From: Sphingobium sp. EM0848 | Lineage (GTDB): Bacteria; Pseudomonadota; Alphaproteobacteria; Sphingomonadales; Sphingomonadaceae | DNA: 64,000 nucleotides | Direction: 5' to 3' | Assembly (NCBI RefSeq): GCF_013375555.1 | Contig: NZ_JABXWB010000003.1 | Location: forward strand, 1-64,000 | Shown here: positions 45,765 through 62,471 of the stretch, in pieces | Layout: each line of letters starts with the position of its first letter | Numbering within the stretch: position 1 is the stretch's first letter | Notes under the pieces: generated by a model | What the model was told of the DNA's origin: nothing | Database searches by the model: none | What the model saw: only the letters and a program-made list of their open reading frames with translations | Translations under genes and position numbers: made by a program

Positions 45765-47484
45765 GTAAGCGGGGCAAACTCCCGGGCGGTCAGGCGGGAG
45801 CGGCGCTGACGAGGTCCGGCAGCCATGGAACGGATGGCGCGCCGGGAACGGCGAAGCGATCACCGAGGAATTGGTAGAAGGAGACGCCAAGCTTGGCACA
45901 GGTTTTGATCAGGCCGAGCATGATGTCGCGAGCGATCCGTCCTTGTTCGCTAACGGTGCCACCGGAAATTTTGCGCTTGGTGACAAAGCTGCGGATATCG
46001 TTTTCCGAACCGTTGGTATGCAACGGGATTTCGGGACGTGTCAGAACGCGCAGGAGATCGTTTTTCTGGCGGTAGAGGCGTGCCAATTGCCGATCGAGCA
46101 TCACAAAGCCGGTTTTGCGGGCAAAGATCCGGTCAAAACGAACCCTGAGGGCACGGCCCCGTTTGGGATCCGGATGCTTTTGCCAGGCTTTGAGATCGGC
46201 GTAGAACCACCAGATCAACGTGCGGATGAGTTCGAGCGCTTCACGATCTTTCTTCGAGCGGGGATGGAGTTTGTGGACCAGCCTTTCTGCATGTACCCAG
46301 CACAACGCATGGTTGCTGCCGACGCGGAACTGACCGGCGCCATCGGAGACGATAGCTGTGTCGCCGAGCAGACCTTGTTCGCAAAGGGCGCCCCATAGCG
46401 CGCCTTCGGTCGCGACCTTGGTGGGATCGGGCGTGACGCTCAACTTGTCAAAGCCCAGCGCGCAAAGATGCGCCTGCCACGCCTCGGGGCTCTCAAAATG
46501 CTTGGCTTCGTGGGCTTCCAGCACGGCAATCGGTTCGGACGCGAGGTTCATCTCGCGCATTTTGGCTAGCGCTTCGTCGTTGACGACAAAATGGCTGATG
46601 CCCGCCTGAAGAAGATTGAGAAAATTGCGCCGCGATTTGGAAAAGCTGCTGCGAAACACCGCGAAGCGCCGATCCCCAAGATGGGTGACATACCCATTCT
46701 TGCGAGCATGCGGAGCGGAAGTGTCGTCGACATTGATCCATTGCGCCGTGGAAATCCCCGTGGCTAAAATCGCCCGATCTTCGGCAACCAGATCGTCGAG
46801 CCCACGGCTGAGCAGTCGTACGACCTGGCGTTTGGAAATGGCCAAACCCATCCCGTTCAACATCGAGCACAGCCGTTCGCTGGTGATCTGACCTTGGAAA
46901 TGACCCGCCGTGATAAAGCGCCGTAGCTCGGGGCCAAAGCCTCCCAAAATGCCCGCCGGCAACTCTGCTGCGATCCGCTTACCATCAGGACCCCGCCAAA
47001 TCTCGCGACGATAGCGGATGACGTCAACTTCAAGCCGAAGATCCTGCACCAAGACGTCTTCGTAACCCTTGAAACGTGAGCCATCAGGAACTGCCGCTTT
47101 CAGCGTCACATCCCGGCTGACGGTGAGCTTCGATTGCACCGCCCCACGCCTCCGCTTGCTCCGCTTCTTCCCCGGTGTCGGTGACGTCGACTTCTCCATC
47201 CCCGATGGCTTCGACTTGAAGCGGGGACGCGGCGGATCGCCCTTCAATCGCGCAATCTCGTCCCGTAATGCCTGGATCTCCAGCTTGTCAGCCGCCCTCT
47301 CGATCAGCAGATCCTGGTTCGTCGCTTCCAGACGGTCGCAACGCTCAACCAGCGCAGCAACAACCCGACGAATATCCTCCTCGCCTCTTGTACCGCCAAT
47401 GTCGTTGCCCGAAGTCATCGGCAGTGTGAATCACGCCAAACCAACCTTGTCCAGTCCCCCTGCCCGGAAATTTGCCCCGCTTAC
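45765..47484 (-). mobile_element. IS66-like element, copy 1
   Basis: 1720 bp bounded by inverted repeats GTAAGCGGGGCAAA (left) and the same sequence inverted at the right end (TTTGCCCCGCTTAC). The 9-bp target duplication GCTCACGCG lies immediately outside both ends. It holds one transposase gene. It is the same as copy 2 at 47659-49378 at every position compared, but sits in a different target. Confidence 0.88.
45790..47418 (-). CDS. IS66-like transposase, copy 1
   Basis: A 542-aa DDE transposase. The N-terminal coiled coil is RCDRLEATNQDLLIERAADK, the basic linker KKRSKRRRG, and the central part QWINVDDTSAPHARKNGYVT and HALCWVHAERLVHKLHPRSK has Asp residues expected for catalysis. The end IPLHTNGSENDIRSFVTKRK matches the final block of IS66 TnpC proteins (NGxENxIR). 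Unlike most IS66 elements there are no TnpA/TnpB accessory genes. The ORF is intact. Confidence 0.8.
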   Translation of the reverse strand: MTSGNDIGGTRGEEDIRRVVAALVERCDRLEATNQDLLIERAADKLEIQALRDEIARLKGDPPRPRFKSKPSGMEKSTSPTPGKKRSKRRRGAVQSKLTVSRDVTLKAAVPDGSRFKGYEDVLVQDLRLEVDVIRYRREIWRGPDGKRIAAELPAGILGGFGPELRRFITAGHFQGQITSERLCSMLNGMGLAISKRQVVRLLSRGLDDLVAEDRAILATGISTAQWINVDDTSAPHARKNGYVTHLGDRRFAVFRSSFSKSRRNFLNLLQAGISHFVVNDEALAKMREMNLASEPIAVLEAHEAKHFESPEAWQAHLCALGFDKLSVTPDPTKVATEGALWGALCEQGLLGDTAIVSDGAGQFRVGSNHALCWVHAERLVHKLHPRSKKDREALELIRTLIWWFYADLKAWQKHPDPKRGRALRVRFDRIFARKTGFVMLDRQLARLYRQKNDLLRVLTRPEIPLHTNGSENDIRSFVTKRKISGGTVSEQGRIARDIMLGLIKTCAKLGVSFYQFLGDRFAVPGAPSVPWLPDLVSAAPA

Positions 47485-47658: not shown

Positions 47659-49378
47659 GTAAGCGGGGCAAACTCCCGGGCGGTCAGGCGGGAGCGGCGC
47701 TGACGAGGTCCGGCAGCCATGGAACGGATGGCGCGCCGGGAACGGCGAAGCGATCACCGAGGAATTGGTAGAAGGAGACGCCAAGCTTGGCACAGGTTTT
47801 GATCAGGCCGAGCATGATGTCGCGAGCGATCCGTCCTTGTTCGCTAACGGTGCCACCGGAAATTTTGCGCTTGGTGACAAAGCTGCGGATATCGTTTTCC
47901 GAACCGTTGGTATGCAACGGGATTTCGGGACGTGTCAGAACGCGCAGGAGATCGTTTTTCTGGCGGTAGAGGCGTGCCAATTGCCGATCGAGCATCACAA
48001 AGCCGGTTTTGCGGGCAAAGATCCGGTCAAAACGAACCCTGAGGGCACGGCCCCGTTTGGGATCCGGATGCTTTTGCCAGGCTTTGAGATCGGCGTAGAA
48101 CCACCAGATCAACGTGCGGATGAGTTCGAGCGCTTCACGATCTTTCTTCGAGCGGGGATGGAGTTTGTGGACCAGCCTTTCTGCATGTACCCAGCACAAC
48201 GCATGGTTGCTGCCGACGCGGAACTGACCGGCGCCATCGGAGACGATAGCTGTGTCGCCGAGCAGACCTTGTTCGCAAAGGGCGCCCCATAGCGCGCCTT
48301 CGGTCGCGACCTTGGTGGGATCGGGCGTGACGCTCAACTTGTCAAAGCCCAGCGCGCAAAGATGCGCCTGCCACGCCTCGGGGCTCTCAAAATGCTTGGC
48401 TTCGTGGGCTTCCAGCACGGCAATCGGTTCGGACGCGAGGTTCATCTCGCGCATTTTGGCTAGCGCTTCGTCGTTGACGACAAAATGGCTGATGCCCGCC
48501 TGAAGAAGATTGAGAAAATTGCGCCGCGATTTGGAAAAGCTGCTGCGAAACACCGCGAAGCGCCGATCCCCAAGATGGGTGACATACCCATTCTTGCGAG
48601 CATGCGGAGCGGAAGTGTCGTCGACATTGATCCATTGCGCCGTGGAAATCCCCGTGGCTAAAATCGCCCGATCTTCGGCAACCAGATCGTCGAGCCCACG
48701 GCTGAGCAGTCGTACGACCTGGCGTTTGGAAATGGCCAAACCCATCCCGTTCAACATCGAGCACAGCCGTTCGCTGGTGATCTGACCTTGGAAATGACCC
48801 GCCGTGATAAAGCGCCGTAGCTCGGGGCCAAAGCCTCCCAAAATGCCCGCCGGCAACTCTGCTGCGATCCGCTTACCATCAGGACCCCGCCAAATCTCGC
48901 GACGATAGCGGATGACGTCAACTTCAAGCCGAAGATCCTGCACCAAGACGTCTTCGTAACCCTTGAAACGTGAGCCATCAGGAACTGCCGCTTTCAGCGT
49001 CACATCCCGGCTGACGGTGAGCTTCGATTGCACCGCCCCACGCCTCCGCTTGCTCCGCTTCTTCCCCGGTGTCGGTGACGTCGACTTCTCCATCCCCGAT
49101 GGCTTCGACTTGAAGCGGGGACGCGGCGGATCGCCCTTCAATCGCGCAATCTCGTCCCGTAATGCCTGGATCTCCAGCTTGTCAGCCGCCCTCTCGATCA
49201 GCAGATCCTGGTTCGTCGCTTCCAGACGGTCGCAACGCTCAACCAGCGCAGCAACAACCCGACGAATATCCTCCTCGCCTCTTGTACCGCCAATGTCGTT
49301 GCCCGAAGTCATCGGCAGTGTGAATCACGCCAAACCAACCTTGTCCAGTCCCCCTGCCCGGAAATTTGCCCCGCTTAC
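47659..49378 (-). mobile_element. IS66-like element, copy 2
   Basis: 1720 bp with the same GTAAGCGGGGCAAA terminal repeats as copy 1 and a different 9-bp target duplication, TTTCCGAAA, on both sides. The different duplication shows it arose by its own transposition rather than by tandem duplication. Confidence 0.88.
47684..49312 (-). CDS. IS66-like transposase, copy 2
   Basis: The 542-aa product is identical to that of the copy at 45790-47418, in the same orientation. Identity of the whole element points to very recent transposition. Two such elements in direct orientation also provide 1.7 kb of homology for deletion of the 174-bp spacer with one copy. Confidence 0.82.
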   Translation of the reverse strand: MTSGNDIGGTRGEEDIRRVVAALVERCDRLEATNQDLLIERAADKLEIQALRDEIARLKGDPPRPRFKSKPSGMEKSTSPTPGKKRSKRRRGAVQSKLTVSRDVTLKAAVPDGSRFKGYEDVLVQDLRLEVDVIRYRREIWRGPDGKRIAAELPAGILGGFGPELRRFITAGHFQGQITSERLCSMLNGMGLAISKRQVVRLLSRGLDDLVAEDRAILATGISTAQWINVDDTSAPHARKNGYVTHLGDRRFAVFRSSFSKSRRNFLNLLQAGISHFVVNDEALAKMREMNLASEPIAVLEAHEAKHFESPEAWQAHLCALGFDKLSVTPDPTKVATEGALWGALCEQGLLGDTAIVSDGAGQFRVGSNHALCWVHAERLVHKLHPRSKKDREALELIRTLIWWFYADLKAWQKHPDPKRGRALRVRFDRIFARKTGFVMLDRQLARLYRQKNDLLRVLTRPEIPLHTNGSENDIRSFVTKRKISGGTVSEQGRIARDIMLGLIKTCAKLGVSFYQFLGDRFAVPGAPSVPWLPDLVSAAPA

Positions 49379-49494
49379 TTTCCGAAAGCCGGGCGTTAGC
49401 CCTAACATCCGGCTCTGCTGAAGGCTGTTTGCTTACGGATTTTCAGCCTTTTGCCAGCGAATCGAAGCGGTTCGCGAAGAGCAAAGGTGGCCAT

Positions 49495-50622
49495 ATGCTT
49501 ACGGATGGAAATCTCGCCCGTCGCTCGACCCTCGAAGCAGGCATACATTGGGACAGCGAATTGCCCGGTTTCGGCCTGCGCGTGTATAAATCGGGGCGCA
49601 AACGCTGGATCGTGCAACTGCGGCAGCGGCGCGTTTCCCGCCGTATCACCCTTGGCGACCCGGCAAAGCTGCCCGCCACGGAAGCCCGCCAGGAGGCTCG
49701 AGCCTTGCTGGCCGAGAACGCTTTGGATGGCCTTCCCGTCCGCAAGCCCCGTACTGTGCGCGCCGATCCCTGGTTCGATGCCTATGTTGCGGAATTCTGG
49801 CGGGACTATTCCAGCCATTGGAAGCCCTCTACCCAGGTTCGCAACCGGCAGGCGATCGACAGGACGTTGCTCCCCTGGTTCGGCCGTCGTCACATCGGAA
49901 CCATCACCCGAGCCGATGTCTTTGCATGGCGCGATAGCCTGGTTGACCGGCAGGGCATCTTCAATCGCGACCTCCCCGTCCTTGCCGCCATGCTCGGCTA
50001 TGCCGAAAAGCTGGGCTACCGGCCGAAGGACTCCAATCCCTGCAAGGGGGTGCCGCGTTACAAGCGTCAGCTCCCGGAACGCTTCCTGACCAGCAGGGAG
50101 TATCGGCGCCTTTGGGCCGTCCTGACCGAGTTTGAATCCGATAATGTCGAGGCTGTGGCCGCGATCCGCCTGCTGATTTTCACGGGCGCGAGAAAGTCGG
50201 AAATAACCACTCTGCGCCGCGAATGGCTCGATCCGCCCTACGCCAATCTGCCAGACAGCAAAACCGGTCCGAAGCGCCTTTATCTGAACCGGCAGGCGCT
50301 GGCGATCCTTGATGCGAGGAAAGGGGAGGGGGAAGGCCCGGTCTTGCCGATGTTGGATGCCAAGGTGCATGTTCTCCCCTATGTGTGGGAGGACATCAGG
50401 CGACGCGCCGCCATTCCCGATGTTCGCCTTCACGATCTGCGCCATAGTTTCGCGTCCGTGGGCATCACGGATGGCATGTCCCTGATGCGCGTGGGGAAGC
50501 TTCTCGGGCATGCCCTGCCAGAAACGACGGTTCGCTATGCCCATCTGGCGGACACGGCCATTGCCGACGCCGCCGCCCGCGTTTCCGGTTCGATCGCCGC
50601 AGCCTTGGGGCTGCGGCCATGA
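49495..50622 (+). CDS. Tyrosine recombinase/integrase 1 of a tandem pair
   Basis: About 375 aa from ATG 49495 (AAAGGTGG upstream; the longer frame extends into the IS66-like element). An N-terminal arm domain (SELPGFGLRVYKSGRKRWIV) is followed by a core-binding domain and the catalytic domain with FTGARKSEITTLR (Arg), HDLRHSFASVG (His-x-x-Arg), KLLGHALPETT (His) and VRYAHL (nucleophilic Tyr). It belongs to the DUF4102-type integrases of genomic islands. It overlaps the next recombinase by ATGA, so the two are co-translated. Confidence 0.9.
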   Translation: MLTDGNLARRSTLEAGIHWDSELPGFGLRVYKSGRKRWIVQLRQRRVSRRITLGDPAKLPATEARQEARALLAENALDGLPVRKPRTVRADPWFDAYVAEFWRDYSSHWKPSTQVRNRQAIDRTLLPWFGRRHIGTITRADVFAWRDSLVDRQGIFNRDLPVLAAMLGYAEKLGYRPKDSNPCKGVPRYKRQLPERFLTSREYRRLWAVLTEFESDNVEAVAAIRLLIFTGARKSEITTLRREWLDPPYANLPDSKTGPKRLYLNRQALAILDARKGEGEGPVLPMLDAKVHVLPYVWEDIRRRAAIPDVRLHDLRHSFASVGITDGMSLMRVGKLLGHALPETTVRYAHLADTAIADAAARVSGSIAAALGLRP

Positions 50623-51797
50623 ACGCGGTTTCGTTGCGCGCGATCCTCGCGCGGGAGCTTGCTGCGGTCGGCATTGTCGATCGCGGTGATCTCGCCGCCC
50701 ACAGCCGCCCTCGCTTCATGCGCTGGTCGGCCAAGCAACCGGGCTTTGGCGTCCGGATATATCGATCCGGCAAGAGGGTCTACGTCGTGCAGGTGCGGAT
50801 GCAGGGCGTGGTCCGTACCGTCACCATTTGTAATGCGGCATTTATTTCCGAGCATGTCGCCCTCGACGTGGCCCGCCGTGTCATTCTGCGCGCTCAGGTC
50901 GGAGAGAATCCGGCCGAGCAGCGCAAGCGCACCCGCTCGCTCCCGCCCTTCGATCGCTTCCTTGAGCGATATTGGCAGCAGGCCTCGCCCTCGTGGAAGC
51001 CCTCGACGCGCGTCGCGCACGACAAATATCGTAGCTATCACCTCGACGGCGCTTTTGCTGGAAAGACGATCGATGCGATCGACACGGCAGACGTAACGGC
51101 GTGGTACGCTGCTGTTGCCGACAATGCGGGACCAGGCGCGGCCAATCGCACGCTTGATATTCTCAGGGCCATGCTCAACAGGGCGGAGGAATGGGGCGCA
51201 CGCCCACCGGGGTCCAATCCCTGCCGATCGATCCGGAGATATAAGGGCCGGAAGATCGAACGGCATTTGACCCAAGCGGAATTCGAGCGGCTGGGCAAAG
51301 TGCTGGACCGGCAAAAGGTGGAAAGGCCAATCCACACGGCGGCGGTCTATTTGCTGTTGCTGACCGGGTGCCGCTTATCGGAAATCATCAATCTCACATG
51401 GGGCGAGGTCAAGGGTCATCGGTTGAAGTTGACCGATAGCAAGACAGGCCCGCGTACCGTCTGGCTGGGCGAAGATGCCCGCGCGATCCTTGACCAGCTG
51501 GAGCGGGGGAAGGGAGCGGACCTTGTGTTCCGCAGCCCGACCACCGGAGGCGCGATCAACCTCAGCTTTCTCTGGACCACCGTCCGCAAGGAAGCTGGGC
51601 TAGGCTTGATACGCCTTCATGACATCCGCCACAGCTTCGCCAGTCGGGGGGCCGGGATGTGCGAGACGCTGCCGATGATCGGCAAGCTGCTCGGCCACAG
51701 CAGTATCAAGAGTACCGCCCGCTATGCGCATCTGGATGATTCCGACGCCACGGAGGCCGCCCAGCGGATAGGCGACCTGATCGAGGCGATGATTTGA
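50619..51797 (+). CDS. Tyrosine recombinase/integrase 2 of a tandem pair
   Basis: A 392-aa recombinase with the same layout as its neighbour: arm domain KQPGFGVRIYRSGKRVYVVQ, catalytic LTGCRLSEIINLTW, HDIRHSFASRGAG, KLLGHSSIKST and ARYAHLDDSD. Its start overlaps the stop of integrase 1. The two differ clearly in sequence, so this is an old paired system rather than a recent duplication. It borders the defence genes that follow and probably mobilises or once mobilised them. Confidence 0.9.
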   Translation: MNAVSLRAILARELAAVGIVDRGDLAAHSRPRFMRWSAKQPGFGVRIYRSGKRVYVVQVRMQGVVRTVTICNAAFISEHVALDVARRVILRAQVGENPAEQRKRTRSLPPFDRFLERYWQQASPSWKPSTRVAHDKYRSYHLDGAFAGKTIDAIDTADVTAWYAAVADNAGPGAANRTLDILRAMLNRAEEWGARPPGSNPCRSIRRYKGRKIERHLTQAEFERLGKVLDRQKVERPIHTAAVYLLLLTGCRLSEIINLTWGEVKGHRLKLTDSKTGPRTVWLGEDARAILDQLERGKGADLVFRSPTTGGAINLSFLWTTVRKEAGLGLIRLHDIRHSFASRGAGMCETLPMIGKLLGHSSIKSTARYAHLDDSDATEAAQRIGDLIEAMI

Positions 51798-51988
51798 AAG
51801 GAAAGTAAGATAGGTAGGTTAGAGAAGGACGTGATGCTGACACGGATTTTCAAGAGCCAACGGACTATGAAGTTCTCGTGGAGTGGACGGATAACGGATG
51901 CAGTCTTACGGGATGCATTAACCGCGTCAGAGCCATTTGTTCGTTGCCAATTCAAGGTTGGACTGATTCAGACCGATCGAAATCCAAT
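51798..51988. other. Gap between integrase 2 and the defence operon
   Basis: About 190 bp, AT-richer than the integrases, between a plus-strand integrase and the 3' end of a minus-strand operon. No gene or clear terminator recognised; an attachment site could lie here but no repeat partner was found by eye. Confidence 0.3.
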
Positions 51989-53812
51989 CTACGGTTGACA
52001 AACTACAAACCCTACAGCTCCCATTTCTGCACATGCTGAGTAATAGTTTGTCAGTAACCAAAATAGCTGAACGAAATGCGCGGAAGGGCGACCGCCAGAC
52101 GCAATCTCCGTAAAAGCATCTTGGACGGCCTGCTTGCTGAGCGAAGAAGTAACGATATATACGTGCCTGACCGCGTCTGGAGCCCACCGAATTTCATCGA
52201 TTTTTTGGCGAATTTCTACTATCTCCCCACCGCGAATGATCTTACAAATCTCCGTGGCCACGCCACTACCGCTGGTGTAATTTCCCGCCCAGCCCTGATA
52301 TTTCGCCTCCATTGCATCGGCGGCAAGAGTTAGTCGACCTAAATTTTTTTGGGCTTGGCTCACAGAAACATGAAATGCCGACGCTCCAAGAGTTAGAGTT
52401 CCGTGCTTTCCATGATAAAAGCTCACACTTGGCGGTCGGGACTGCGTGTTAAGACCTATAAAATCGGCCCACTCGTCACCGAGGTCGTCACAAATTAGAA
52501 CGTCATCCCCCACTGCGATTTCATCTGCAATTTGACGGAATACACTGCCCTCACCAAACTGTTCTTGGCCAATTTCGAATTCCCCTTTTTCGCTTGTAGC
52601 TGATCCTAGTAGGAGTGAAGGTAGGAGGTGCCGTAAGAAATTAGCGCCTCCGTCCTGCATAGCTTCATTACGGAATACTTCGCCTTCCAAATAGGCTATG
52701 GTAGGATCGGTAAAGAGGATCGTGAATAAATTCTCGCGATCGAGGTAGCGCACGAACGCCTTTCGATCCTCATCATCACCAACCGGAAATTCAGTGTGTT
52801 CGACCTCTATTCCGACGACTTGAGGCATATTTAGGGCGCGAAGTGCAATCCTAGTTTTCGTCATGCGGATCGTGCCTATATTTCGAGCACCGCGTTTAAT
52901 CCGAAAATCTGGCCTACCGGGTCTAACCGGAAATACCTCTCCAATAGCTGCTAGGATATCTTCCACTTCGGCCACGGTGAGTTGTGTGAAATTGCCGGTC
53001 GTAGGGTCCTTCCGAACTAGGCGAATAAGCGGCGTCTCCGCCAAGAGCAGTTCAGAAAGCTGAGGTGTGTCAAGAGCGAACGTAATTGGAGTAGTGTCAG
53101 GGGGGAGCGCGTCCAGGCCCAAGCGCCGTGCGAAGTTTCGGATGAAGCGGGCATTGGTTGCGCCGCCTGCCTCTAACTGGTCCATTACTTCTGCGGCCCA
53201 TTCAATGGCTATCGCCGCATCCCCTTTATCACTGCGCTTGGCAATTCGCCCTGTTCCCGGTGTTGCAGAGAAAAATCCGTCAGCCCGCGCTACGCTATAT
53301 CCTTGTGCAAAGAAGCCGTTAGCGCTTGCGAGAGGCATCGCCTCCTCAAGGTTGTTGGCTTCCACTGTTTTTGCTCGAACGCCCTGTTTCGATTGCGATG
53401 TGCTTTTGACACGAACCTTCTCAAAAATAGCCTCTGCGGTAGCGATTGCAGCCTCCACACTACCGGGGTTAGCTCGCGCAAGATGGCGACCTTTGAAGGT
53501 CGTCGGCAATTCGAGGCCTGATTTAAAAATGGCGATATGACTGGCTCGCTCAACGATAAGTAAAAAGCCATGAACGCGATCAAACGCCATCTTCTCCGCT
53601 GTTAAGAAACCGGCGGCTCGCTCGTGTGAAAAGCAGATGGCTGAAATCACGCTGCCATCATGGGCTTCTCGGACGTGGCGAAATAGGTTGGTGGATGGCT
53701 TTCGCGAACCGCTGCGCAAACTCGTAAAGAGGCGTTCGACGACGGCGGCATTTATTGGCTTTTGGCATGAAAAAAAATTTGCGGTAGTGCCAATTATGAG
53801 ATCATCAATCAT
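51989..53812 (-). CDS. Uncharacterised 607-aa protein, third gene of the hamAB operon
   Basis: I do not recognise the family. Residues 1-130 have a hydrophobic beta-rich pattern (VHGFLLIVERASHIAIFKSG). Residues 200-330 are mixed. Residues 438-492 form a conserved-looking core: VLICDDLGDEWADFIGL, then SVSFYHGKH and SAFHVSVSQAQKNLG. The Asp/Glu cluster followed by a Tyr-His-x-Lys-His strand faintly resembles the DUF6119/TIGR04141 group, or a nuclease-like core; this is inference. It lies 46 bp after hamB on the same strand and is AT-richer than the surrounding IS and recombinase genes, like hamA and hamB. Probably an effector, sensor or regulator added to a Hachiman-type module. Confidence 0.65.
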   Translation of the reverse strand: MIDDLIIGTTANFFSCQKPINAAVVERLFTSLRSGSRKPSTNLFRHVREAHDGSVISAICFSHERAAGFLTAEKMAFDRVHGFLLIVERASHIAIFKSGLELPTTFKGRHLARANPGSVEAAIATAEAIFEKVRVKSTSQSKQGVRAKTVEANNLEEAMPLASANGFFAQGYSVARADGFFSATPGTGRIAKRSDKGDAAIAIEWAAEVMDQLEAGGATNARFIRNFARRLGLDALPPDTTPITFALDTPQLSELLLAETPLIRLVRKDPTTGNFTQLTVAEVEDILAAIGEVFPVRPGRPDFRIKRGARNIGTIRMTKTRIALRALNMPQVVGIEVEHTEFPVGDDEDRKAFVRYLDRENLFTILFTDPTIAYLEGEVFRNEAMQDGGANFLRHLLPSLLLGSATSEKGEFEIGQEQFGEGSVFRQIADEIAVGDDVLICDDLGDEWADFIGLNTQSRPPSVSFYHGKHGTLTLGASAFHVSVSQAQKNLGRLTLAADAMEAKYQGWAGNYTSGSGVATEICKIIRGGEIVEIRQKIDEIRWAPDAVRHVYIVTSSLSKQAVQDAFTEIASGGRPSAHFVQLFWLLTNYYSACAEMGAVGFVVCQP

Positions 53813-53858
53813 TGGGAAGCCTTACTGAAGATTTACATGATTCTATCTGAGTGTAATT

Positions 53859-55946
53859 CTACCGTGGAATGGCATCTGCTATCCATTGCCGTTCCATTGC
53901 CGACATTTGTGATTGCTCATTTAGGGCGATCGCACGGAGTCTGGTCCCCAAAGTCGTGACAGTGTCGCCATTACGCAGAAATCTCTCGGATATCTGAATT
54001 GGAACGCCTTGTTCCTCAAGGATTTTCAGGCTTTCGTCGCGAAACCATCTAGGCAGTTCTGCTAAAATCAGCGAATAATCTAATGTTCGCGACGGCATGT
54101 TAATTTTCGCAAATAGCTCAACCACCGCAAAGTATTCGGGTAAACTGAATTCAGCTGCACGGAGAAACTTAAAAACGTTATCAATCCTCTGCGGTAGTCC
54201 TTTATAACTCTCCGAGTGCCAATGGTAAAATTCCTTCATAGTCGCGCTTTGTCTCAATTTGCTGATGTATAAGGCGAGTTGGCGAGCCGATCCACATCCA
54301 AAAACTTGTGCCTTCGTCACTTTGCAAATAACTTCACAAGTCGCAGCGAGATTATCGTATGAGGGTCTGCCGCTCCACGCGATCGCGGCTCGAGCGCGCA
54401 CGGCGGCCCCTACAGCAGCTCGCAGCCCGACTAGCGTCTCTACTCCTAATCCTGAGAATCGACGTATCTGATGAGGTTCTAAACCTACTCTCTCTGCCAT
54501 GTCTGCAAGGCGGTCAGACACAACTGGAGAAAGGTCTACATCGTCCATATGGACGACGAATTCGTCGGGGGCCTGTTCAGGATCGCCGAAGAGTGGCGCC
54601 GTTACCTCGACGTCTTCATGATCGGGAGGTTCATGGAATAGATAAACTTGACCTACGTGGTGCTTTCCTAGCCTTCCGGCGCGACCTCTAATGTTTGAAA
54701 ACGTAAAAAAGTCATAGGGGCGGTTCGCAATTGTTTTGTCATAAATCATGACTGACTTGGCTGCGGTGTTTACTCCTTCAATCAAGGTCGAAGTGCAAAT
54801 TAGGACCGGTATTTTTCTGTCGTTAAAAAGTTTAACAAACCGGGAGGCGAGTGCCCTTGGGATGCGGCCGTGGTGAATACCAATCCCCGCTGCAACTGCC
54901 TCGGAAAGTTCCCATTTTCCTCCATAATTATCTGCCATCCATTTGGATAGAGCAGTTCCATTGCCAAGCTTGGTTCCATTCTCGACTATGTCGCTGGCAA
55001 GTTTGTTCGCCTTGTCTGGTGACGAGACGAAAACTAACGCAGGCCAATTGGACTGCATCTTAATTTCTTGGTGTAGGCGAACATCTTTATTGGAAACGGA
55101 TTTGAGGTCGATCGTATCAACGGCGACTGTGGAAAATCGGGTTCTTAGGAATTCGAATCTCCATCGGCTACCTTCTGATGTTAAGACCCCATCAATGTTT
55201 GGCCCTAAAAAGAAAAACTGACGAGCTTTGCTGAGAAGTTTATAGACTGCGGCGTTTAGCGTCACCGATCTATCGTCTTTTCGGTGAGGATCGAGCTTGT
55301 AGAATTCGTCAACGACGACGAGATCGAGGGTACCTAGGTCATCGCGGTTGATCAACCTTTCCTGAGTTCCCAGAAAAATGACCTTTTCGCGACTTGCCTT
55401 CTCGGAATGATGCATTAATACGTCAAATGTCTCACCAAACCTAGTGATGAGGCGTCTTCGGAATTCATCGAGCAGAGCAATAGTGGGCAGGACAATTGCC
55501 ACTCGCCGGAATTTTGGTTGATATAGAAGAGCATCAATCAGAATACTTTTACCGAAGCTTGTGGGCGCGCTCAATATAAGGTTTTTGCCGCTTGCTAGAG
55601 TGTGAAGGGCCGATAATTGTTCGCGATGGAGGGTTAGACCTAGGCCGGGAATCGTCGCACGCTCTGCGGCCAGTTCATCTTGGGCCGATGCCGATGAACG
55701 ATCAATATAGTTCCATAAGCCAACGGAACGTGCCAGAGCACTAAACGCCTCGCTGAAAGATTGAAGCTCATTTCGGCGGGCCATTAGATCGGCAAGGCGC
55801 GGTATTGTCGCGAGAAGTTCAGGGTCATCCGCCGGAGCGTTTTGAATCCGGTTCGACGCATCTTGCAAGATCGAAAAGACGTCACCTTTCAAATCAAACT
55901 CATTCTTCTGAGCAAGTTCTATCCAGTTGGTATTTGAGATACTCAT
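53859..55946 (-). CDS. hamB: HamB-like superfamily 2 helicase
   Basis: A 695-aa helicase. A Q-motif-like HREQLSALHTL lies at 107-117, Walker A APTSFGKS at 127-134, motif Ia VLPTIALLDE, DExx box DEFY at 213-216, CTSTLIEGVN near 384-393, and motif VI SNIRGRAGRLGKH at 417-429, a Ski2-like pattern. In Hachiman, HamB is a DNA helicase that holds and activates the HamA nuclease when it meets aberrant DNA. It overlaps hamA by ATGA (55943-55946), and a third gene follows after 46 bp. It is shorter than the HamB proteins I recall and also resembles the AbpB/YfjK helicases, so the subtype is uncertain. Confidence 0.8.
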   Translation of the reverse strand: MSISNTNWIELAQKNEFDLKGDVFSILQDASNRIQNAPADDPELLATIPRLADLMARRNELQSFSEAFSALARSVGLWNYIDRSSASAQDELAAERATIPGLGLTLHREQLSALHTLASGKNLILSAPTSFGKSILIDALLYQPKFRRVAIVLPTIALLDEFRRRLITRFGETFDVLMHHSEKASREKVIFLGTQERLINRDDLGTLDLVVVDEFYKLDPHRKDDRSVTLNAAVYKLLSKARQFFFLGPNIDGVLTSEGSRWRFEFLRTRFSTVAVDTIDLKSVSNKDVRLHQEIKMQSNWPALVFVSSPDKANKLASDIVENGTKLGNGTALSKWMADNYGGKWELSEAVAAGIGIHHGRIPRALASRFVKLFNDRKIPVLICTSTLIEGVNTAAKSVMIYDKTIANRPYDFFTFSNIRGRAGRLGKHHVGQVYLFHEPPDHEDVEVTAPLFGDPEQAPDEFVVHMDDVDLSPVVSDRLADMAERVGLEPHQIRRFSGLGVETLVGLRAAVGAAVRARAAIAWSGRPSYDNLAATCEVICKVTKAQVFGCGSARQLALYISKLRQSATMKEFYHWHSESYKGLPQRIDNVFKFLRAAEFSLPEYFAVVELFAKINMPSRTLDYSLILAELPRWFRDESLKILEEQGVPIQISERFLRNGDTVTTLGTRLRAIALNEQSQMSAMERQWIADAIPR

Positions 55947-56797
55947 TGCAGCCCCTTAAGGCGATTGTCGAACGAGCTAACGAATTCCTTTTTGCTAGCC
56001 AAGGGAATGTAGGCTAAGACAAGTTTTAATTTTGTGGGAAGTCCACTTGCGGATAGCTTAGTTTCTATTGCTTCAAGTTCACCGATGGCTGCTTCAAAAT
56101 AGCTTTGGCCATGTTCTTTTGCCGCTGACACAGCCTTACTATCGCACAATATTCCTACTACAAATACTGCATTCTTTATCAGCGTATCTAGGCTTTCTTG
56201 TCTGCTGAAAAGCTGCATAATTTCATCATATCGCGGTGTGGATTTCGGTATTTGTGGGCCAAGAAGCAATTTTTGATTGGAAAGGAAGCCTTCATCAATG
56301 TGAAGCTTTATCGATTTGATCGCGTCCGCAATCGCTGATGCACCGGACTTGAAAAGCTTGGACTCGCCTAACCAAATCTGAACCGATCCATCGCTCGGAA
56401 ACCGGGCGTGTACCATATCGAATGCCTTGACCACGTCATTGGACGCAGATTTGTAAAACACTCGCGGCGACAACGGAATTGTTTTGAAAAAATCGCGGCA
56501 TATCGCGTGTAGCGCAATTTCGCCAGCTTCACCCCGAGAAGCATATTTTGTGCTAGTGTAAACTCTAACTGCCGCCTGGTTCAATTTTACTAACACGTTC
56601 CCATGGTCAAATCGTAATTCTTCTTCGGGAAGCGCATAATCGGGTAGCCATTCGGCCAAATGAAATGCGAATTGCTTACAGCGCCACTCGCCCAACTCAA
56701 AGCCTGCACAATACAGGCGGGTATGAGGGTTCTCGATTTTTCGATGCAGGCGCTTTAAGAAGCGTTGCGGTTTTTGATCGTAAATACTCAAATGCAC
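55943..56797 (-). CDS. hamA: HamA-like DUF1837 nuclease
   Basis: A 284-aa DUF1837 protein, the nuclease subunit of Hachiman anti-phage systems. It has the family's RGEAGEIALHAICRDFF (residues 88-104), FYKSASNDVVKAFDMVH (D127) and the active-site strand IWLGESKLF with the Glu-x-Lys pair E145/K147 of the PD-(D/E)xK fold. The start is GTG at 56797 with AAGGGG immediately before it; the TTG two codons later would be better spaced. The stop overlaps hamB by ATGA. It is first in the operon, with its promoter in the 56.8-57.0 kb gap. Confidence 0.82.
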   Translation of the reverse strand: MHLSIYDQKPQRFLKRLHRKIENPHTRLYCAGFELGEWRCKQFAFHLAEWLPDYALPEEELRFDHGNVLVKLNQAAVRVYTSTKYASRGEAGEIALHAICRDFFKTIPLSPRVFYKSASNDVVKAFDMVHARFPSDGSVQIWLGESKLFKSGASAIADAIKSIKLHIDEGFLSNQKLLLGPQIPKSTPRYDEIMQLFSRQESLDTLIKNAVFVVGILCDSKAVSAAKEHGQSYFEAAIGELEAIETKLSASGLPTKLKLVLAYIPLASKKEFVSSFDNRLKGLQ

Positions 56798-57081
56798 CCC
56801 CTTGCCCTCTAAAGAAAATGCATAAGTTGAGTACGTTGGCTAGAGGGTTTCTACACCGAAACGATATGGAGGCGCATGAGAGTGTGTTTTAATGGATTGA
56901 AGTTCTCTATGTGTTCTCATTGAAGCATGTTGGGAGCGGGCTGAGGGTGAAGGCAATTCCAGGGTTCAGTGGGCACCATGAAGGCCGAGGACCGCTAACC
57001 GCGCCCGGCTTAGATCATGTTTCCTGCCTCTGAGCTGCGGTTTTTCTCCCACTCTCCCGTCATCAGCGCTATTACCATTCT
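56798..57081. other. Divergent intergenic gap between hamA and vsr
   Basis: About 280 bp between divergent starts. The half near hamA is AT-rich and should hold its promoter; the half near vsr is GC-richer. No gene, palindrome or clear -35/-10 pair could be supported. Confidence 0.4.
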
Positions 57082-57501
57082 GTGGTCGATCGAATAACGC
57101 CGGAAGCGCGAAGCGCCAATATGAGCCGTGTGCGGAACAAGAACACCAAGCCGGAGCTTTTGGTGCGAAGCGTTTTGCATCGAGCAGGGTATCGTTTCCG
57201 CCTTCATCTAGATGACCTTGCGGGCTCTCCCGACATCGTGCTGCCCAAATATCAGACGGCAATTTTTGTACACGGCTGCTTTTGGCACGGGCATGAAGGC
57301 TGTCGCCGATCCAAGCTGCCCGCCACTCGCATAGAATTTTGGCGGGCCAAGATCGAACGCAACAAGGAGCGAGACCTTACCGCCAAGCAGGAGTTGACCG
57401 TGCTAGGCTTTAAGGTGGTGACTCTTTGGGAGTGCGAGCTTAAACCTGCGTCCGCGATCTTGAGTAGGGTGGATAGTGTGACCGGGCGGGGCGAACTTTG
57501 A
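57082..57501 (+). CDS. vsr: Very short patch repair endonuclease
   Basis: A 139-aa Vsr nuclease that nicks beside T:G mismatches produced by deamination of 5-methylcytosine. It shows the N-terminal RSANMSRVRNKNTKPELLVR, catalytic Asp in AGSPDIVLPKY, zinc-site residues in HGCFWHGHEGCR and the helix FWRAKIERNKERD. The start is GTG (57082). It travels with the m5C methyltransferase at 60301, as expected for repair of its methylation sites. The next gene starts within its stop codon (TTGA). Confidence 0.92.
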   Translation: MVDRITPEARSANMSRVRNKNTKPELLVRSVLHRAGYRFRLHLDDLAGSPDIVLPKYQTAIFVHGCFWHGHEGCRRSKLPATRIEFWRAKIERNKERDLTAKQELTVLGFKVVTLWECELKPASAILSRVDSVTGRGEL

Positions 57502-57788
57502 AGGGACTAAGCAAAGAATTAGAGGGCGTGTTGGCGCAGGTGACGAGCAGACACGACGTTGTTCCGTTCTTGGCGAAGATGTTGCCCGTTGATGGCTTAG
57601 TCTTCCAGCCTCTGCCGCCCGAAATGCTCGAAATTATTTGCTCATCTCCAGACTATCAGAGCGTTCGTCCCGGAGCACAGCCTACTTGGTTGCAGATTGC
57701 CACTGACGATGATTTTGTGGAGTTGGTGGTGTACCGGGCGGAGGCGGACGGCAATTACTATATCCTCTCGCCCCGGGCAGAAGGCTGA
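57498..57788 (+). CDS. Hypothetical protein between vsr and the HNH gene
   Basis: A 96-aa soluble protein (LPPEMLEIICSSPDYQSVRP, DDFVELVVYRAEADGNYYIL); no domain recognised. A TTG start at 57498 overlaps the vsr stop, and its own stop overlaps the ATG of the HNH endonuclease gene (TGATG at 57786-57790). The overlapping layout shows it belongs to the restriction-modification operon, perhaps as a small accessory subunit or immunity protein. Confidence 0.65.
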   Translation: MKGLSKELEGVLAQVTSRHDVVPFLAKMLPVDGLVFQPLPPEMLEIICSSPDYQSVRPGAQPTWLQIATDDDFVELVVYRAEADGNYYILSPRAEG

Positions 57789-58645
57789 TGGCGAGGCGAC
57801 CACGCGGGAACGATGCGGAGGCGCTGCGGCGCGGCCTGATTGAGCTTCTCACTAATTTCGAGCAGCACCTTCGAGAGAGCGGCCTGAGAGATCAGGTCCG
57901 AGCGCTCGTGCCTGCCCATAAGCAGCTCCAGGACCTAGGATGTTCGCTGCTCCCGCAGGGATCGAATCTCTCTGCCCGTGAACGCATCCTCGCCTATCTT
58001 CGAACCTTTCCCGGCCAAGTGATCGACGGCGACGAATTGATGATCGTCGCGGGTATTAGCGAATATGCGAGACGACTCCGTGAGCTTCGTGTTGAGGAAG
58101 GCTGGCCGATCCTGTCCGGGATGACCGCACGCGAACAGCGGGATGCTGACGCGGAAGGTGGTGACGGTACTGACCTGCCGCCTGTAATGAAGCCTGACCA
58201 GTATATGCTTGCAGAGGATCGGCAGGACCGCGACGCCGCACATCGTTGGAATATGGCGAACCAGATTCGTAAGAGTGAGGCTGGGGTGCGCGATAAGTTG
58301 CTGCGGTTCTTCCGAGCCAATGTGGGCAAGCCGATCACCTCGGAGGAATTGCGGTATGTCGCCGGCAATGTGAGCGAATGGGCGCGTCGTACCCGAGAGC
58401 TCAGAACTGAGGACGGTTGGCCGGTAGTTACACGGACTAGCGGCGATCCATCACTGCCGGTCGGCGTTTATGTATTGATGCGAGATGAGCAGGCTCCGGC
58501 ACATGATCGCCATATCCCGGAGATCGTCCGACGGGAAGTCATGCGACGGGACAACTGGTCGTGTCGTTGGGTGGGATGCGGCTGGCCGCACGGGTTCCCT
58601 GCCTCCGATCATCGCTAAGGAGAAACAAAACCGATTGTCTGTGGA

Positions 58646-59917
58646 TCATGGGGCCTCTGCGATTGGTTGAAGCTCGACCTGGAAGCCAAGCTTGGTGAGC
58701 TGGGCGACCAGACGCCTGGCTTTGCATTCGGCGGAGCGACGGTCGAAGTGGTCGATGCCAAGATCCTGATGTACGACGCCGTTTGTGAGCATGTGCCAGA
58801 TCGCGGTGAGCATGGCGGCGGCGACCGCACAGATCGCTTTCTTGGGTCCCCGCCGGCTGCGCAAGCGGTTGAACTGCGCCTTGTAATAGCTGTCTTTCTT
58901 TTTCACGGCAGACCAGGCGCATTGGACCAGCACGGTCTTGAGCCAGCGCCCGCCCTTGCGCAGGTGCGAGGATTTGCGCTTGCCGGCGCTCTCATTCTGC
59001 CCCGGACACAGCCCGGCCCAGGCGACAAAATGCCCGGCGGTGGCAAAGCGGCTCATGTCGGTGCCGGTTTCCGCCAGGATGCTGGTGGCCGACAGGGTGC
59101 TGATGCCCGGCATCGTGTTGAGAAGATGGATCAGGGATCGAAAGGTGGCTCGCCCGGGCGCCACCTGCTGGTCCATGGCAGCGATTGCGGCATCAACTGC
59201 CCGATCGATCTCGATGATCGCCTTGTCCAGCGCGTCATACTGCTCGAGGTAGAGCCTGAGCATGAAACAGTGATGATCGGTCAGCCGCCCATGCAGCGCA
59301 TCATACAGATGTTTGGGAGTGGCCTTGACCCGTCCATCGGCCAGGGCCGCCAGCCTGGCCGGATTGCGGATCCCGGCGATCATCGCTTCGATCATCCGGC
59401 GGCCCGACACGCCCATGATGTCGCTGATTACCGAATCCAGTTTGATATTGGCCTCTTCCAACGTCTTCTGGATCCGCTGGGTGTGGCGGGTCTGCTCCTG
59501 GATCAGCTGCTTGCGCATGCGCATCAGCGAACGCAGCTCCTGCGTCGCCTGGTCGGGAACGAAGCTCGCCCGGATCAGGCCACAGGCGACCAGATCGGCA
59601 ATCCAGGTCGCGTCATTGACGTCGGTCTTGCGGCCCGGAACATTCTTGATGTGCGCGGCATTGGCCAGGATCAGATCGAAGGGGCCCTCGCTCAGGATAT
59701 TCCACACCGGCTTCCAGTAGACCCCGGTCGCCTCCATCGCGACATGGCTACAGCCTGAGTCCGTCAGCCACGCCAGCAAGGACGACAGGCCCGCCGTCGT
59801 GGTCTCGAAGGACTGGCATTCCCGGCTTGTCTTGCCCTCCGACGCCAGGCGTACACAGCCCACGATCATCGCTTTGTGTACATCCAGACCAGCGACACGT
59901 TCGTGCATGATCTCCAT
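58646..59917 (-). CDS. IS110-family transposase (DEDD recombinase)
   Basis: A 423-aa transposase. The RuvC-like N-terminal domain has VAGLDVHKAMIVGCVRL (first Asp), HVAMEATGVYWKPVWNIL (Glu) and GRKTDVNDATWIADLVACG (two Asp). The C-terminal domain has MPGISTLSATSILAETGTDM, AWAGLCPGQNESAGKRKSSH with the catalytic Ser region, and LRKGGRWLKTVLVQCAW. The ORF is intact and unlike the other IS110-family transposase at 37951, so it is a separate element. Confidence 0.9.
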   Translation of the reverse strand: MEIMHERVAGLDVHKAMIVGCVRLASEGKTSRECQSFETTTAGLSSLLAWLTDSGCSHVAMEATGVYWKPVWNILSEGPFDLILANAAHIKNVPGRKTDVNDATWIADLVACGLIRASFVPDQATQELRSLMRMRKQLIQEQTRHTQRIQKTLEEANIKLDSVISDIMGVSGRRMIEAMIAGIRNPARLAALADGRVKATPKHLYDALHGRLTDHHCFMLRLYLEQYDALDKAIIEIDRAVDAAIAAMDQQVAPGRATFRSLIHLLNTMPGISTLSATSILAETGTDMSRFATAGHFVAWAGLCPGQNESAGKRKSSHLRKGGRWLKTVLVQCAWSAVKKKDSYYKAQFNRLRSRRGPKKAICAVAAAMLTAIWHMLTNGVVHQDLGIDHFDRRSAECKARRLVAQLTKLGFQVELQPIAEAP

Positions 59918-60173
59918 CGAGACTCTCCTCTCACCAGTGCCGCCAGCGTGGGGACCTCACCGAAAAGAACTCTAAGGAACGCGCTCCAGGAACATGGCTG
60001 CTCCCTGGCGCCAATGGGGGTGATCGAGGCGCCCCGGGTCCAAACTACTTTACGGGCTCTCCAGCACCATAGCAAAAAGCAACCTCCGTGCTGACGACGT
60101 CGACATAATATCGCGCGGAGCGCAGCCCGACCAGTTTCAGTTAAGGGGGTCAGCCAAAGGCTGGTGCCGAACT
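59918..60173 (-). ncRNA. Candidate bridge RNA region of the IS110 element
   Basis: 256 bp of non-coding DNA upstream of the transposase inside the element. It contains several GC-rich inverted segments (for example GGCGCCAATGG and CGAGGCGCC near 60008-60034). AACTACTT at 60043-60050 matches the junction AACTACTT at 60170-60177, where CTACTT continues into the target, so it could be a guide segment. In IS110 elements the bridge RNA comes from the end upstream of the recombinase. No expression evidence is available. Confidence 0.4.
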
Positions 60174-60300
60174 ACTTAGAAGCGCATCACATTAAACAGC
60201 ATGCCCACGGAGGAGAGAACACAGCCGAAAACCTCATCACGCTATGCAACCTGCATCATGACGAAACCCACCGAACCGGTGCCTTGGAGATTGAGCCGCT

Positions 60301-61374
60301 TTAAGCTGCGGCTTTCATTTTTCCGTCAAGAATCTGGCGAACTACTGACGCGATCGCTCCAGCAAGCGGTGGAGGGACGGCGTTGCCGATCTGACGCGCG
60401 ATCTCAACTTTCGTCCCCACGAACTTGAAGTCATCAGGAAAGCCCATGATGCGCGCGGCCTCGCGATGCGTGATTGGACGATCCTGATCGGGGTGCAGAT
60501 AGCGGCCCTTCTCAGGCTTGAAGAACTCAGTGCGGATGGTGACGGAGGGTCGATCCCACCAGAGACGCCCGAACAAGTCGGTTCCCCCGCTGGTCTTTCT
60601 AATCCAGCAATCGGGCGTAATATCCGGGGCGTTGCGCTGGAGATCGAAACGGTTTCCGCCCGGAGGGACGGCCTTATAGCGCTTGAGACTCTTTTCGGTC
60701 GGGGTCCGCCCGAAATGCAAATTTAGCGGAGCCTTGGCCTTACGAATTTCTGTGCCGACTGGCTTTGGAAGATTGGCAATCACATCCCGGACCGTCCTCC
60801 AGGCCGGTAAGTTTGTGATCGAATTAGGCTGTGCATGGGTGGGGAGCGGCGGAAACTGCGGAGCAGTCATTCCGCGCTTGTAGCCGATAATGACAGTGCG
60901 CTTGCGCGTCTGCGCAGCGCCATAATCAGCCGCCAAAAGGATTTCCTTCACGGTGTTGAAGCCGAGCTTTTTCGCGTATTTCTCGATTTCGACACACTCG
61001 GGTGACTTATATAGCTCGGCCACATTCTCGATCACAAACATCGAAGCGCCGCTACGCTGAACTACATCCATGAACGGGAGCCAGAGCGCACGACGACGAT
61101 CGCCGACACGGCGTTTGTTGAGTAGACTAAAGCCTTGGCAGGGGGGGCCGCCGATCACGATGTCGGCGGCAGGGATAGGGCGATTCGAGGAAACCCATTC
61201 CTCTATATCGCCGTGGTCCGCGTGCGGCCCGAAATTGGCGCGATGCGTTTCCACGGCCGCTGCATCAAAATCCAGCGACCACACACTTTCGAAACCACCG
61301 CAGAACCGGCGATCGGTGAACCCCAGCGTCATCCCGCCGGCTCCCGAGAAAAGATCGATTAGCCGGTAACTCAT
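60301..61374 (-). CDS. DNA (cytosine-5) methyltransferase
   Basis: About 357 aa. It has motif I DLFSGAGGMTLGF, motif IV GGPPCQGFSLLN with the catalytic Cys, motif VI VIENVAEL, motif VIII QTRKRTVIIGY, the target-recognition region after SITNLP, motif IX REAARIMGFPDDF and motif X RQIGNAVPPPLA. The ATG at 61374 is preferred; a TTG seven codons upstream lacks a ribosome-binding site. Its stop overlaps the stop of the HNH gene on the other strand. With vsr and the HNH gene it forms a restriction-modification system whose nuclease is now disrupted. It should still protect or mark DNA; the recognition sequence is not predictable. Confidence 0.92.
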   Translation of the reverse strand: MSYRLIDLFSGAGGMTLGFTDRRFCGGFESVWSLDFDAAAVETHRANFGPHADHGDIEEWVSSNRPIPAADIVIGGPPCQGFSLLNKRRVGDRRRALWLPFMDVVQRSGASMFVIENVAELYKSPECVEIEKYAKKLGFNTVKEILLAADYGAAQTRKRTVIIGYKRGMTAPQFPPLPTHAQPNSITNLPAWRTVRDVIANLPKPVGTEIRKAKAPLNLHFGRTPTEKSLKRYKAVPPGGNRFDLQRNAPDITPDCWIRKTSGGTDLFGRLWWDRPSVTIRTEFFKPEKGRYLHPDQDRPITHREAARIMGFPDDFKFVGTKVEIARQIGNAVPPPLAGAIASVVRQILDGKMKAAA

Positions 61375-61571
61375 ATGCCCCCAAGGCTGCGACAATAAAT
61401 TTGGTGGCTACCCTATCGCCGAGAGATTCGGTAAGCAAGAGGTTCTGGTTTCGTTCTATCGCACAGAAGGGGTGGCGTGTGATATTACCGGCGCATGCCG
61501 AGGCTTCGCTGCCTGTGTTTGAGGGCTTAGCTCTTGCTTTATAAGCTTTCTCCCGACAGGGTAATCCTATC

Positions 61572-62471
61572 ATGCGTACCGACCTGGATCATCTACCGGC
61601 GCCGAACCAGCAGGAACTGGAAGAGGTGGTGCGCATCCTGTTTGAGGAGTTCTCCACAGCCATCGGAGCAACCACGGCGCCATGGAAGAAACAAGCGCGC
61701 ATTCTCAAGGTAATCTTGTACGGTAGTTACGCGCGGGGCGATTGGGTTAACGACCCGATAGGCGGTTACAAATCCGACTATGACATTTTGGTCGTCGTGA
61801 ATGACGAGCGGCTGACGGATATAGTGGATTATTGGGCAAGCGCTGAGGATCGGCTTATGCGCGAGGTGACAATAACCGGCAGTCTCAGTGCCCCGGTGGG
61901 CTTTATTGTTCATAGCCTCACGGATGTGAACAAGAGGCTTGAGCAGGGACGACCCTTTTTCGTCGACATCGCCAAGCAGGGAATCGCGCTCTACGAGGCA
62001 GAGGGGTTTGGGCTGGTTACGCCGCGTAAACTTCCTCCAGCCGAAGCAAGAGCGGAAGCTCAGGAATATTTCAATTACTGGTTTGAACAGGCTGAGAGTG
62101 CACGGTTAGGTGCCGAATTTTACCGTGGTGTGCGAAAGGTTCGCGACGCGGCATTCTTGATGCATCAGGCTGCTGAGCGCCTATATCATTGCACCATGCT
62201 GGTGCTGACATTGTATTCCCCGAAGTCTCACAAGCTCACCTTTATGCGCGGTCAGGCAGAGGAAATTGCCCCCGAACTGATTGAAGCATGGCCGCGTGAT
62301 GACAAATTCGGCCGCCGCTGTTTTGAGCTGTTGCGCCAGGCCTATGTCAACGCCCGCTATTCGCCCCATTATAAGGTGACGGACGAGGAGTTGAACTGGC
62401 TCGGGGAGCGCGTCGGTCGCCTTCACGAACTGGTGAAATTGGTCTGCGAGCGGCGACTAGCCGAAAGCTGA
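61572..62471 (+). CDS. Nucleotidyltransferase-HEPN fusion protein
   Basis: A 299-aa single-chain fusion. An N-terminal minimal nucleotidyltransferase domain has VILYGSYARGDW (G51, S52) and the metal Asp pair in YKSDYDILVVV (D69, D71). A C-terminal HEPN domain covers about 160-295 with RKVRDAAFLMHQAAERLYHC and NARYSPHYKVTDEEL; the usual Rx4-6H RNase motif is not clear (R262 and H266 are three residues apart). As separate proteins, MNT and HEPN form a toxin-antitoxin pair in which the MNT adenylylates the HEPN toxin. The fusion may be self-regulating. It lies next to the methyltransferase, inside the defence cluster. Confidence 0.82.
   Translation: MRTDLDHLPAPNQQELEEVVRILFEEFSTAIGATTAPWKKQARILKVILYGSYARGDWVNDPIGGYKSDYDILVVVNDERLTDIVDYWASAEDRLMREVTITGSLSAPVGFIVHSLTDVNKRLEQGRPFFVDIAKQGIALYEAEGFGLVTPRKLPPAEARAEAQEYFNYWFEQAESARLGAEFYRGVRKVRDAAFLMHQAAERLYHCTMLVLTLYSPKSHKLTFMRGQAEEIAPELIEAWPRDDKFGRRCFELLRQAYVNARYSPHYKVTDEELNWLGERVGRLHELVKLVCERRLAES

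Follow-up and report, generated by a model that had tools for sequence, protein, structure and literature searches.

Hachiman, as described in PMC12278908, reacts to DNA damage and degrades both phage and host DNA. In HamAB of E. coli ECOR31 (8VX9) and in AbpAB (8ZUE), a HamA-type protein and a Ski2-like HamB helicase are encoded by overlapping genes. A three-gene form, HamMAB, is also in print; there, HamA carries a fused trypsin-like protease that cleaves a metallo-beta-lactamase (MBL)-type pro-nuclease (PMC12799240). The window analyzed here, the first 64,000 nucleotides of contig NZ_JABXWB010000003.1 of Sphingobium sp. EM0848 (GCF_013375555.1), contains a Hachiman-type operon with the same overlapping pair and an extra gene, which encodes a 607-aa protein of the PADLOC candidate family PDC-S71. 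The reading favored here, with somewhat better than even confidence, is that a Hachiman cassette gained a promiscuous DNA-clamp nuclease module as a second DNA-directed effector; the catalysis of this module and its coupling to HamAB are both inferred.

The first-pass annotation, made from the letters of the window, held that published Hachiman consists of hamA and hamB only. HamMAB, whose third gene is a different one, corrects this. The present locus resembles HamMAB in that an extra nuclease, putative here, is recruited beside Hachiman and unrelated systems, as PMC12799240 describes. It differs in the third protein, which combines predicted RdgC-type and PD-(D/E)XK-like folds, and in its 284-aa HamA, which lacks a protease domain. 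A HamMAB-type proenzyme was therefore rejected: the single Pfam domain of HamA leaves no protease, and no MBL fold was seen in the model of the third protein, where the recognized folds lie at residues 6-217 and ~390-607 and none could be assigned to residues ~220-390.

The hamA-hamB-PDC-S71 cassette

Three consecutive open reading frames (ORFs) on the minus strand make up the cassette. Their coordinates, and those of the two predicted domains of the third protein, are as follows.

55943..56797, minus strand: hamA, 284 aa with a GTG start, a short form without N-terminal fusion (Pfam, PADLOC and an alignment of 11 HamA-type proteins)
53859..55946, minus strand: hamB, 695 aa, a superfamily 2 (SF2, Ski2-like) helicase, PADLOC HamB, best solved relative AbpB
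51989..53812, minus strand: third gene, 607 aa, PDC-S71, with a predicted RdgC/RexA-like fold in the N-terminal domain and a predicted PD-(D/E)XK-like nuclease fold in the C-terminal domain
53162..53797, minus strand: third gene codons 6-217, predicted RdgC/IML3/CENP-L-type fold
51992..52660, minus strand: third gene codons 385-607, predicted PD-(D/E)XK-like nuclease domain with E408, D443, E447, D450, H467-x-K469, Q486, K489 and N490

The 4-base overlap of hamA with hamB and the 46-bp gap between hamB and the third gene, both given by the first-pass annotation, were confirmed from the ORF coordinates. A terminator scan found no minus-strand terminator-like site in the 46-bp gap, and promoter-like sites in 51700-57200 were not above chance (5 found; shuffles gave 5.5, sd 2.6). 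G+C content at third codon positions (GC3) is 0.453, 0.470 and 0.475 in hamA, hamB and the third gene, versus 0.627-0.797 in the eight neighboring genes measured. This low common GC3 points to movement as one block; hamA, hamB and the third gene were therefore most likely transferred together, in agreement with the earlier proposal of a single acquisition based on common strand, spacing and AT-rich composition. The same three genes of Sphingomonas parva (locus L015) have GC3 values of 0.689, 0.692 and 0.719. Composition, strand and spacing also suggest expression together with hamAB, and the third gene is probably the last gene of the operon, co-transcribed with the other two.

HamA and HamB were both confirmed as Hachiman proteins by Pfam and PADLOC, as the first-pass annotation had proposed: a HamA/DUF1837 protein with the D-E-x-K motif is encoded adjacent to an SF2 Ski2-like HamB. 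In HamA, PF08878 (E 2.9e-37) covers residues 41-250 as the sole Pfam domain, and PADLOC HamA1 matches with E 3.4e-105. Its nuclease motif is kept, with D127 and a GESK at 144-147 that places E145-x-K147 exactly where it had been read. Unlike AbpA, which has an N-terminal nuclease, this HamA lacks such a domain and retains E-x-K. Seven of the 11 aligned HamA-type proteins keep E-x-K (the window, L015, L017, L045, L086, L087 and L088). The four long AbpA-type forms lack it, with WLGRS in L012, L085 and L089 and WLGHA in L090; the Cap4 nuclease domain of these long forms was shown by Pfam for L012. The loss agrees with the catalytically inactive HamA domain described for AbpA (PMC12278908). HamB matches PADLOC HamB (E 9.9e-195) and Pfam DEAD (E 7e-10) plus Helicase_C; its Walker motif, APTSFGKS, is at position 127, and DEFY is at 213. 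Among solved chains it is closest to E. coli AbpB (8zue_B, E 8.9e-76); the match to ECOR31 HamB (8vx9_B, E 5.5e-6) is far weaker.

The third protein

The 607-aa protein, which the first-pass annotation could not place, matches PDC-S71 (PDLC05077) over residues 2-607 with E 6.9e-99. All 68 members of a family alignment match PDC-S71 as well; this alignment combined 27 protein-search homologs (the window's own included) with 41 locus sequences. The protein search gave 528 homologs among 8000 scored candidates, 120 of which were listed. PDC-S71 itself, matched here at full length, is a candidate label only, and no function or paper for it was found in literature searched without most subscription papers and bioRxiv. 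The "S" presumably stands for a single-gene candidate, and the PDC names are taken to stem from a preprint about embedded defenses (Payne et al., 2024).

At the level of sequence the third protein has no Pfam or NCBIfam match at E 0.1 and no match among solved-structure sequences, where the family profile also gave zero matches at E 10. Structure prediction, one of the checks proposed by the first-pass annotation, gave a confident AlphaFold (AF2) model (predicted local distance difference test, pLDDT, 90.5), on which two folds were recognized: i) for residues 6-217, Foldseek gives a resemblance to the DNA-binding fold of RdgC (E 5.4e-5), and they have the alpha/beta fold of RdgC, RexA, IML3 and CHL4; and ii) residues ~390-607 resemble PD-(D/E)XK nucleases (FokI, HamA, CdiA-CT nuclease and the Pyrococcus repair endonuclease) and have the PD-(D/E)XK core fold. 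The model thus suggests a DNA-binding RdgC-type domain joined to a PD-(D/E)XK nuclease-like domain. An earlier hint that the core of the protein is involved in catalysis or nucleic-acid binding fits the predicted folds and the invariant residues described below.

The N-terminal domain is alike in fold to RdgC and lambda RexA, without a sequence match to Pfam RdgC. Membership of the RdgC family by sequence was rejected, since Pfam RdgC did not match at E 0.1; nor is RdgC among the 12 families matched by any of 68 relatives. Histone operons of Bacillus and Halobacteria have been reported to encode RdgC-like proteins that carry additional small domains (PMC11390915); the accessible text of that source mentions no nuclease domain in them, unlike the architecture predicted here. 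The same literature searches turned up no report that combines an RdgC-type fold with a nuclease domain.

Conserved site

The motifs singled out by the first-pass annotation, DDLGDEWADF and FYHGKH, lie at residues 441-451 and 465-471, within the predicted nuclease domain. In an alignment of 89 rows, D443, E447, D450 and K469 never vary; 88 rows have E408, K409 and G410, and 88 have H467, which is V in the Bradyrhizobium helicase fusion; and Q486, K489 and N490 are kept in 87, the other two rows having gaps. These rows include two helicase fusions, one other long relative and near-copies; one of the near-copies, L076, duplicates the window's third gene. When rows at least 95% alike were removed, D443, E447, D450 and K469 remained in all 79 non-redundant rows and E408, H467, Q486, K489 and N490 in 78.

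The catalytic residues of FokI are D450...D467-x-K469. The third protein has D450...H467-x-K469, with spacing equal to that of the FokI motif (by residue number, not superposition). D450 and K469 of this putative PD-(D/E)XK motif are present in 79/79 rows, and position 467 is H in 78/79 and V in 1/79. Because the second acid is absent from its usual place, catalysis is put forward here as an inference; E447 or D443 may stand in for the missing acid. While the predicted C-terminal fold is common to FokI, CdiA-CT nuclease, the Pyrococcus repair endonuclease and HamA, the third protein differs from this group by H467 and by the extra near-invariant E408, D443, E447, Q486 and K489-N490.

Genomic neighborhoods of PDC-S71

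Relatives were sampled by scanning genome_contigs with two peptide patterns, which gave 58 loci. Together with further genome loci and the window these made 66 records, of which 53 were examined after removal of seven duplicates (L001, L007, L039, L051, L062, L063 and L064) and of six records without exactly one family match above 300 bits (L048, L054 and L056-L059). Three of the 53 are broken copies (L046, L049 and L050). Neighboring genes come from a greedy longest-ORF rule, not a gene finder, and most members of a neighbor cluster were named from one or two scanned members; the Tle1-like and CBASS-type (cyclic oligonucleotide-based antiphage signaling system) genes were scanned on L009, L006 and L012, the others being named by cluster.

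An upstream gene is visible at 52 of the 53 loci, on the same strand in 30 and divergent in 22. Among the 30, the gap is 60 bp or less in 12, 61-300 bp in 15, and three more complete the set; these are raw counts. Nine of the 12 close joins follow hamB (the window and L015), a reverse transcriptase of type DRT-VI (defense-associated reverse transcriptase; L020) or a Tle1-like phospholipase-domain gene (L003, L005, L006, L008, L009 and L019), six of these nine by a 4-base overlap. The remaining three follow a 112-aa ORF (L017), a 126-aa ORF (L050) and a piece of the same broken gene (L049). At four of these six loci the Tle1-like gene is the last of a CBASS run, whose effector is SAVED-HNH in L003 and L009 and NucC in L006 and L008; in L019 an MkoB-like gene and a transposase precede the Tle1-like gene, and in L005 this gene is a 128-aa piece. 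At 125-280 bp on the same strand stand LmuB (L010), GajA-GajB (L041), a SAVED-cluster gene (L029) and an MvaI/BcnI restriction enzyme (L047). A broken PDC-S71 copy outside the count (L054) is preceded by the same reverse transcriptase cluster.

The Tle1-like (DUF2235) gene is the commonest immediate neighbor of the family (L003, L006, L008, L009, L012, L019 and L029) and is found in CBASS and AbpAB loci alike. Two divergent neighbors may be recorded as well: an HNH-like protein with a PNP/UDP phosphorylase domain and EAD7 (L013:8293-9714), which adjoins CBASS-cluster genes, and a 1003-aa protein with a caspase-type N-terminus by eye and a weak helicase match (L004:6456-9467).

PADLOC was also run on a pooled set of 83 neighbors from 43 loci, which leaves out the window, L015, the five CBASS/Tle1 loci (L003, L005, L006, L008 and L009), the duplicates, L060, L061 and L065. 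Among the best 25 of 214 families, type I methyltransferase models matched three or fewer neighbors, GajB two, and SAVED/HNH effectors two; no single partner predominates among these 83 neighbors. The type I methyltransferase matches in the pool, together with common clusters, indicate that type I restriction-modification (R-M) genes probably follow the PDC-S71 gene in L032 and L044.

Link with Hachiman and distribution

hamB lies directly upstream of the PDC-S71 gene in two of 52 loci, the window and S. parva L015 (31-bp gap). hamA and/or hamB occur in the examined flanks of five of 53 loci, the window included. In one of these, L012, the genes are of AbpAB type on the opposite strand, with a Tle1-like gene between AbpAB and the PDC-S71 gene; in L045 and L017 they lie ~7 and ~9 kb off, and L017 shows only hamA, at the locus edge. 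None of six further Hachiman loci (L085-L090) carries a homolog of the third gene in the DNA examined; four of ten plasmid records with HamB relatives were retrieved. The family is thus not Hachiman-specific, and the proposal that the third gene is an extension proper to Hachiman is not borne out, since homologs are mostly encoded away from hamAB, the condition that the first-pass annotation itself had set for its refutation. An iterated hamB profile drifted, giving high scores to proteins of L004, L005 and L009 and 26 bits to L014 and L022. All five were rejected as HamB: in a single-sequence phmmer search, the HamB of the window matched L004 at E 1.4e-9, and the other four were not listed.

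PDC-S71 was found in 6/398 genomes of the phylum and relatives in 5/396 genomes of the order (partial matches in all but the window's own), and HamB1 at E 1e-60 in 3/385 genomes of the class, the window's own genome included in each count. Matches also occur in six plasmid records, of which two are covered for at least 80% of the protein. Two of the six carry the PDC-S71 module as the C-terminal part of a ResIII/DEAD helicase (SF2):

L066:7336-10407: helicase fusion of Bradyrhizobium p1S06B, 1023 aa
L067:6487-9501: helicase fusion of M. avium pP7a, 1004 aa

The M. avium fusion directly precedes genes annotated as TnsA-like subunit, Mu-type transposase and AAA ATPase. Open frames of 1264 and 1140 aa in two relatives of the window's organism, G599 and G706 (L077 and L078), are probably further fusions; their match to the family profile is confined to residues ~421-564. 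A phage-borne gene was considered and rejected, as no relative was confirmed in viral_contigs (44 pattern matches) and none was present in 50,697 phage records. For E. coli, 5,426 genomes gave no match by DNA similarity with an enterobacterial relative as query, a search that distant relatives could escape. One close homolog (P0111) is listed from a eukaryotic transcriptome set and is likely bacterial contamination.

A tree of 79 rows (78 different) was built by a quick method and has several long branches. The window and S. parva copies, both beside hamAB, fall in separate clades held apart by starred branches; read at face value, these branches force two origins, so the hamAB-PDC-S71 association appears to have arisen twice. 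With two rows, the hamAB label gives a shuffle control that cannot discriminate (500/500 as low). The CBASS/Tle1-linked copies are clustered (4/500 shuffles as low): most share one clade, whereas L029 falls outside it. All neighbor labels taken together cluster no more than shuffled labels.

Flanking elements of the window

The cassette is flanked by two tyrosine recombinases on one side and by vsr and, farther out, an IS110-type transposase on the other.

49366..51797, plus strand: two tyrosine recombinases with a 4-base overlap (Pfam Phage_integrase, E 3.7e-13 and 3.9e-16)

Upstream of the recombinases, 45765-47484 and 47659-49378 are exactly identical direct copies in tandem, each with a 542-aa IS66-type transposase ORF (family named by eye). 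On the other side, 57082-61395 contains vsr (plus strand), a 96-aa ORF, a 276-aa ORF whose HNH-like end adjoins the IS110-type transposase (58646-59917, minus strand), and a C5 cytosine methylase (60301-61395, minus strand); the stretch looks like a type II R-M/vsr cluster split by an insertion element. Beyond it, 61572-62471 encodes one 299-aa protein in which nucleotidyltransferase (MNT-like) and HEPN domains occur together. These two domains are usually found as two separate toxin-antitoxin genes.

Models for the function of PDC-S71

In the favored model of a Hachiman cassette with a second effector, HamB would sense DNA, HamA would open it, and the third protein would destroy phage, and probably also host, DNA. 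The N-terminal domain may have a non-specific grip on duplex DNA, perhaps closing around it as a dimer in the manner of RdgC, and the C-terminal domain would cut it; some step would have to hold back this activity in uninfected cells. The unrelated partner systems detect infection in different ways, and the usual outcome is DNA damage or cell death. The position of the family behind such systems, with their differing sensors, fits a common effector. A wider model, offered tentatively and at less than even confidence, is that PDC-S71 serves bacterial immunity at large as a plug-in clamp nuclease, in which a ring or clamp of RdgC type brings its own PD-(D/E)XK cutter. Repeated recruitment would have placed it last in Hachiman, CBASS, DRT-type reverse transcriptase, Lamassu, Gabija-like and restriction loci, and fusion would have joined it to SF2 helicases; different sensors would then feed the same DNA-gripping, DNA-destroying effector.

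Several observations would be explained if the third protein were an autonomous, partner-free antiphage nuclease that travels in defense islands as a single gene and takes only a promoter from hamB. The 22 divergent upstream genes, the 15 same-strand gaps of 61-300 bp, the rarity of hamB directly upstream (2/52), the frequently solitary state of the gene and the unclustered neighbor labels on the tree all point this way, as does the PADLOC listing, if its "S" denotes a single gene. Against such a hitch-hiker stand the 9/12 close joins that follow hamB, a reverse transcriptase or a Tle1-like gene, the GC3 similar to that of hamAB, and the helicase fusions, which suggest partners. It is the main rival of the favored reading and a real possibility, although one in which doubt outweighs belief. 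The histidine in place of the usual acid would suit a guardian or regulator, in which the RdgC-like domain protects or monitors host DNA or restrains HamAB, with a degenerate nuclease domain kept as a scaffold. In keeping with such a role, RdgC is known to limit the function of RecA, and RexA is described as a DNA-binding exclusion protein (PMC11077077). The invariance of D443, E447, D450 and K469 in 79/79 rows is unexpected for a dead site, and this explanation is regarded as improbable. Least credible, with only a very slight chance of being right, is a true HamC, on which a separate subtype of Hachiman would depend as its third subunit: S. parva has the same gene order with its 31-bp gap, but the two hamAB-linked copies sit in separate clades kept apart by starred branches, and the six other Hachiman loci have no third gene in the DNA examined.

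The second-effector reading would give a candidate defense family known only by its label a testable function, that of a DNA clamp and nuclease with named residues. PDC-S71 may also be a second example, besides the published nuclease-protease pairs, of an effector module common to unrelated antiviral systems.

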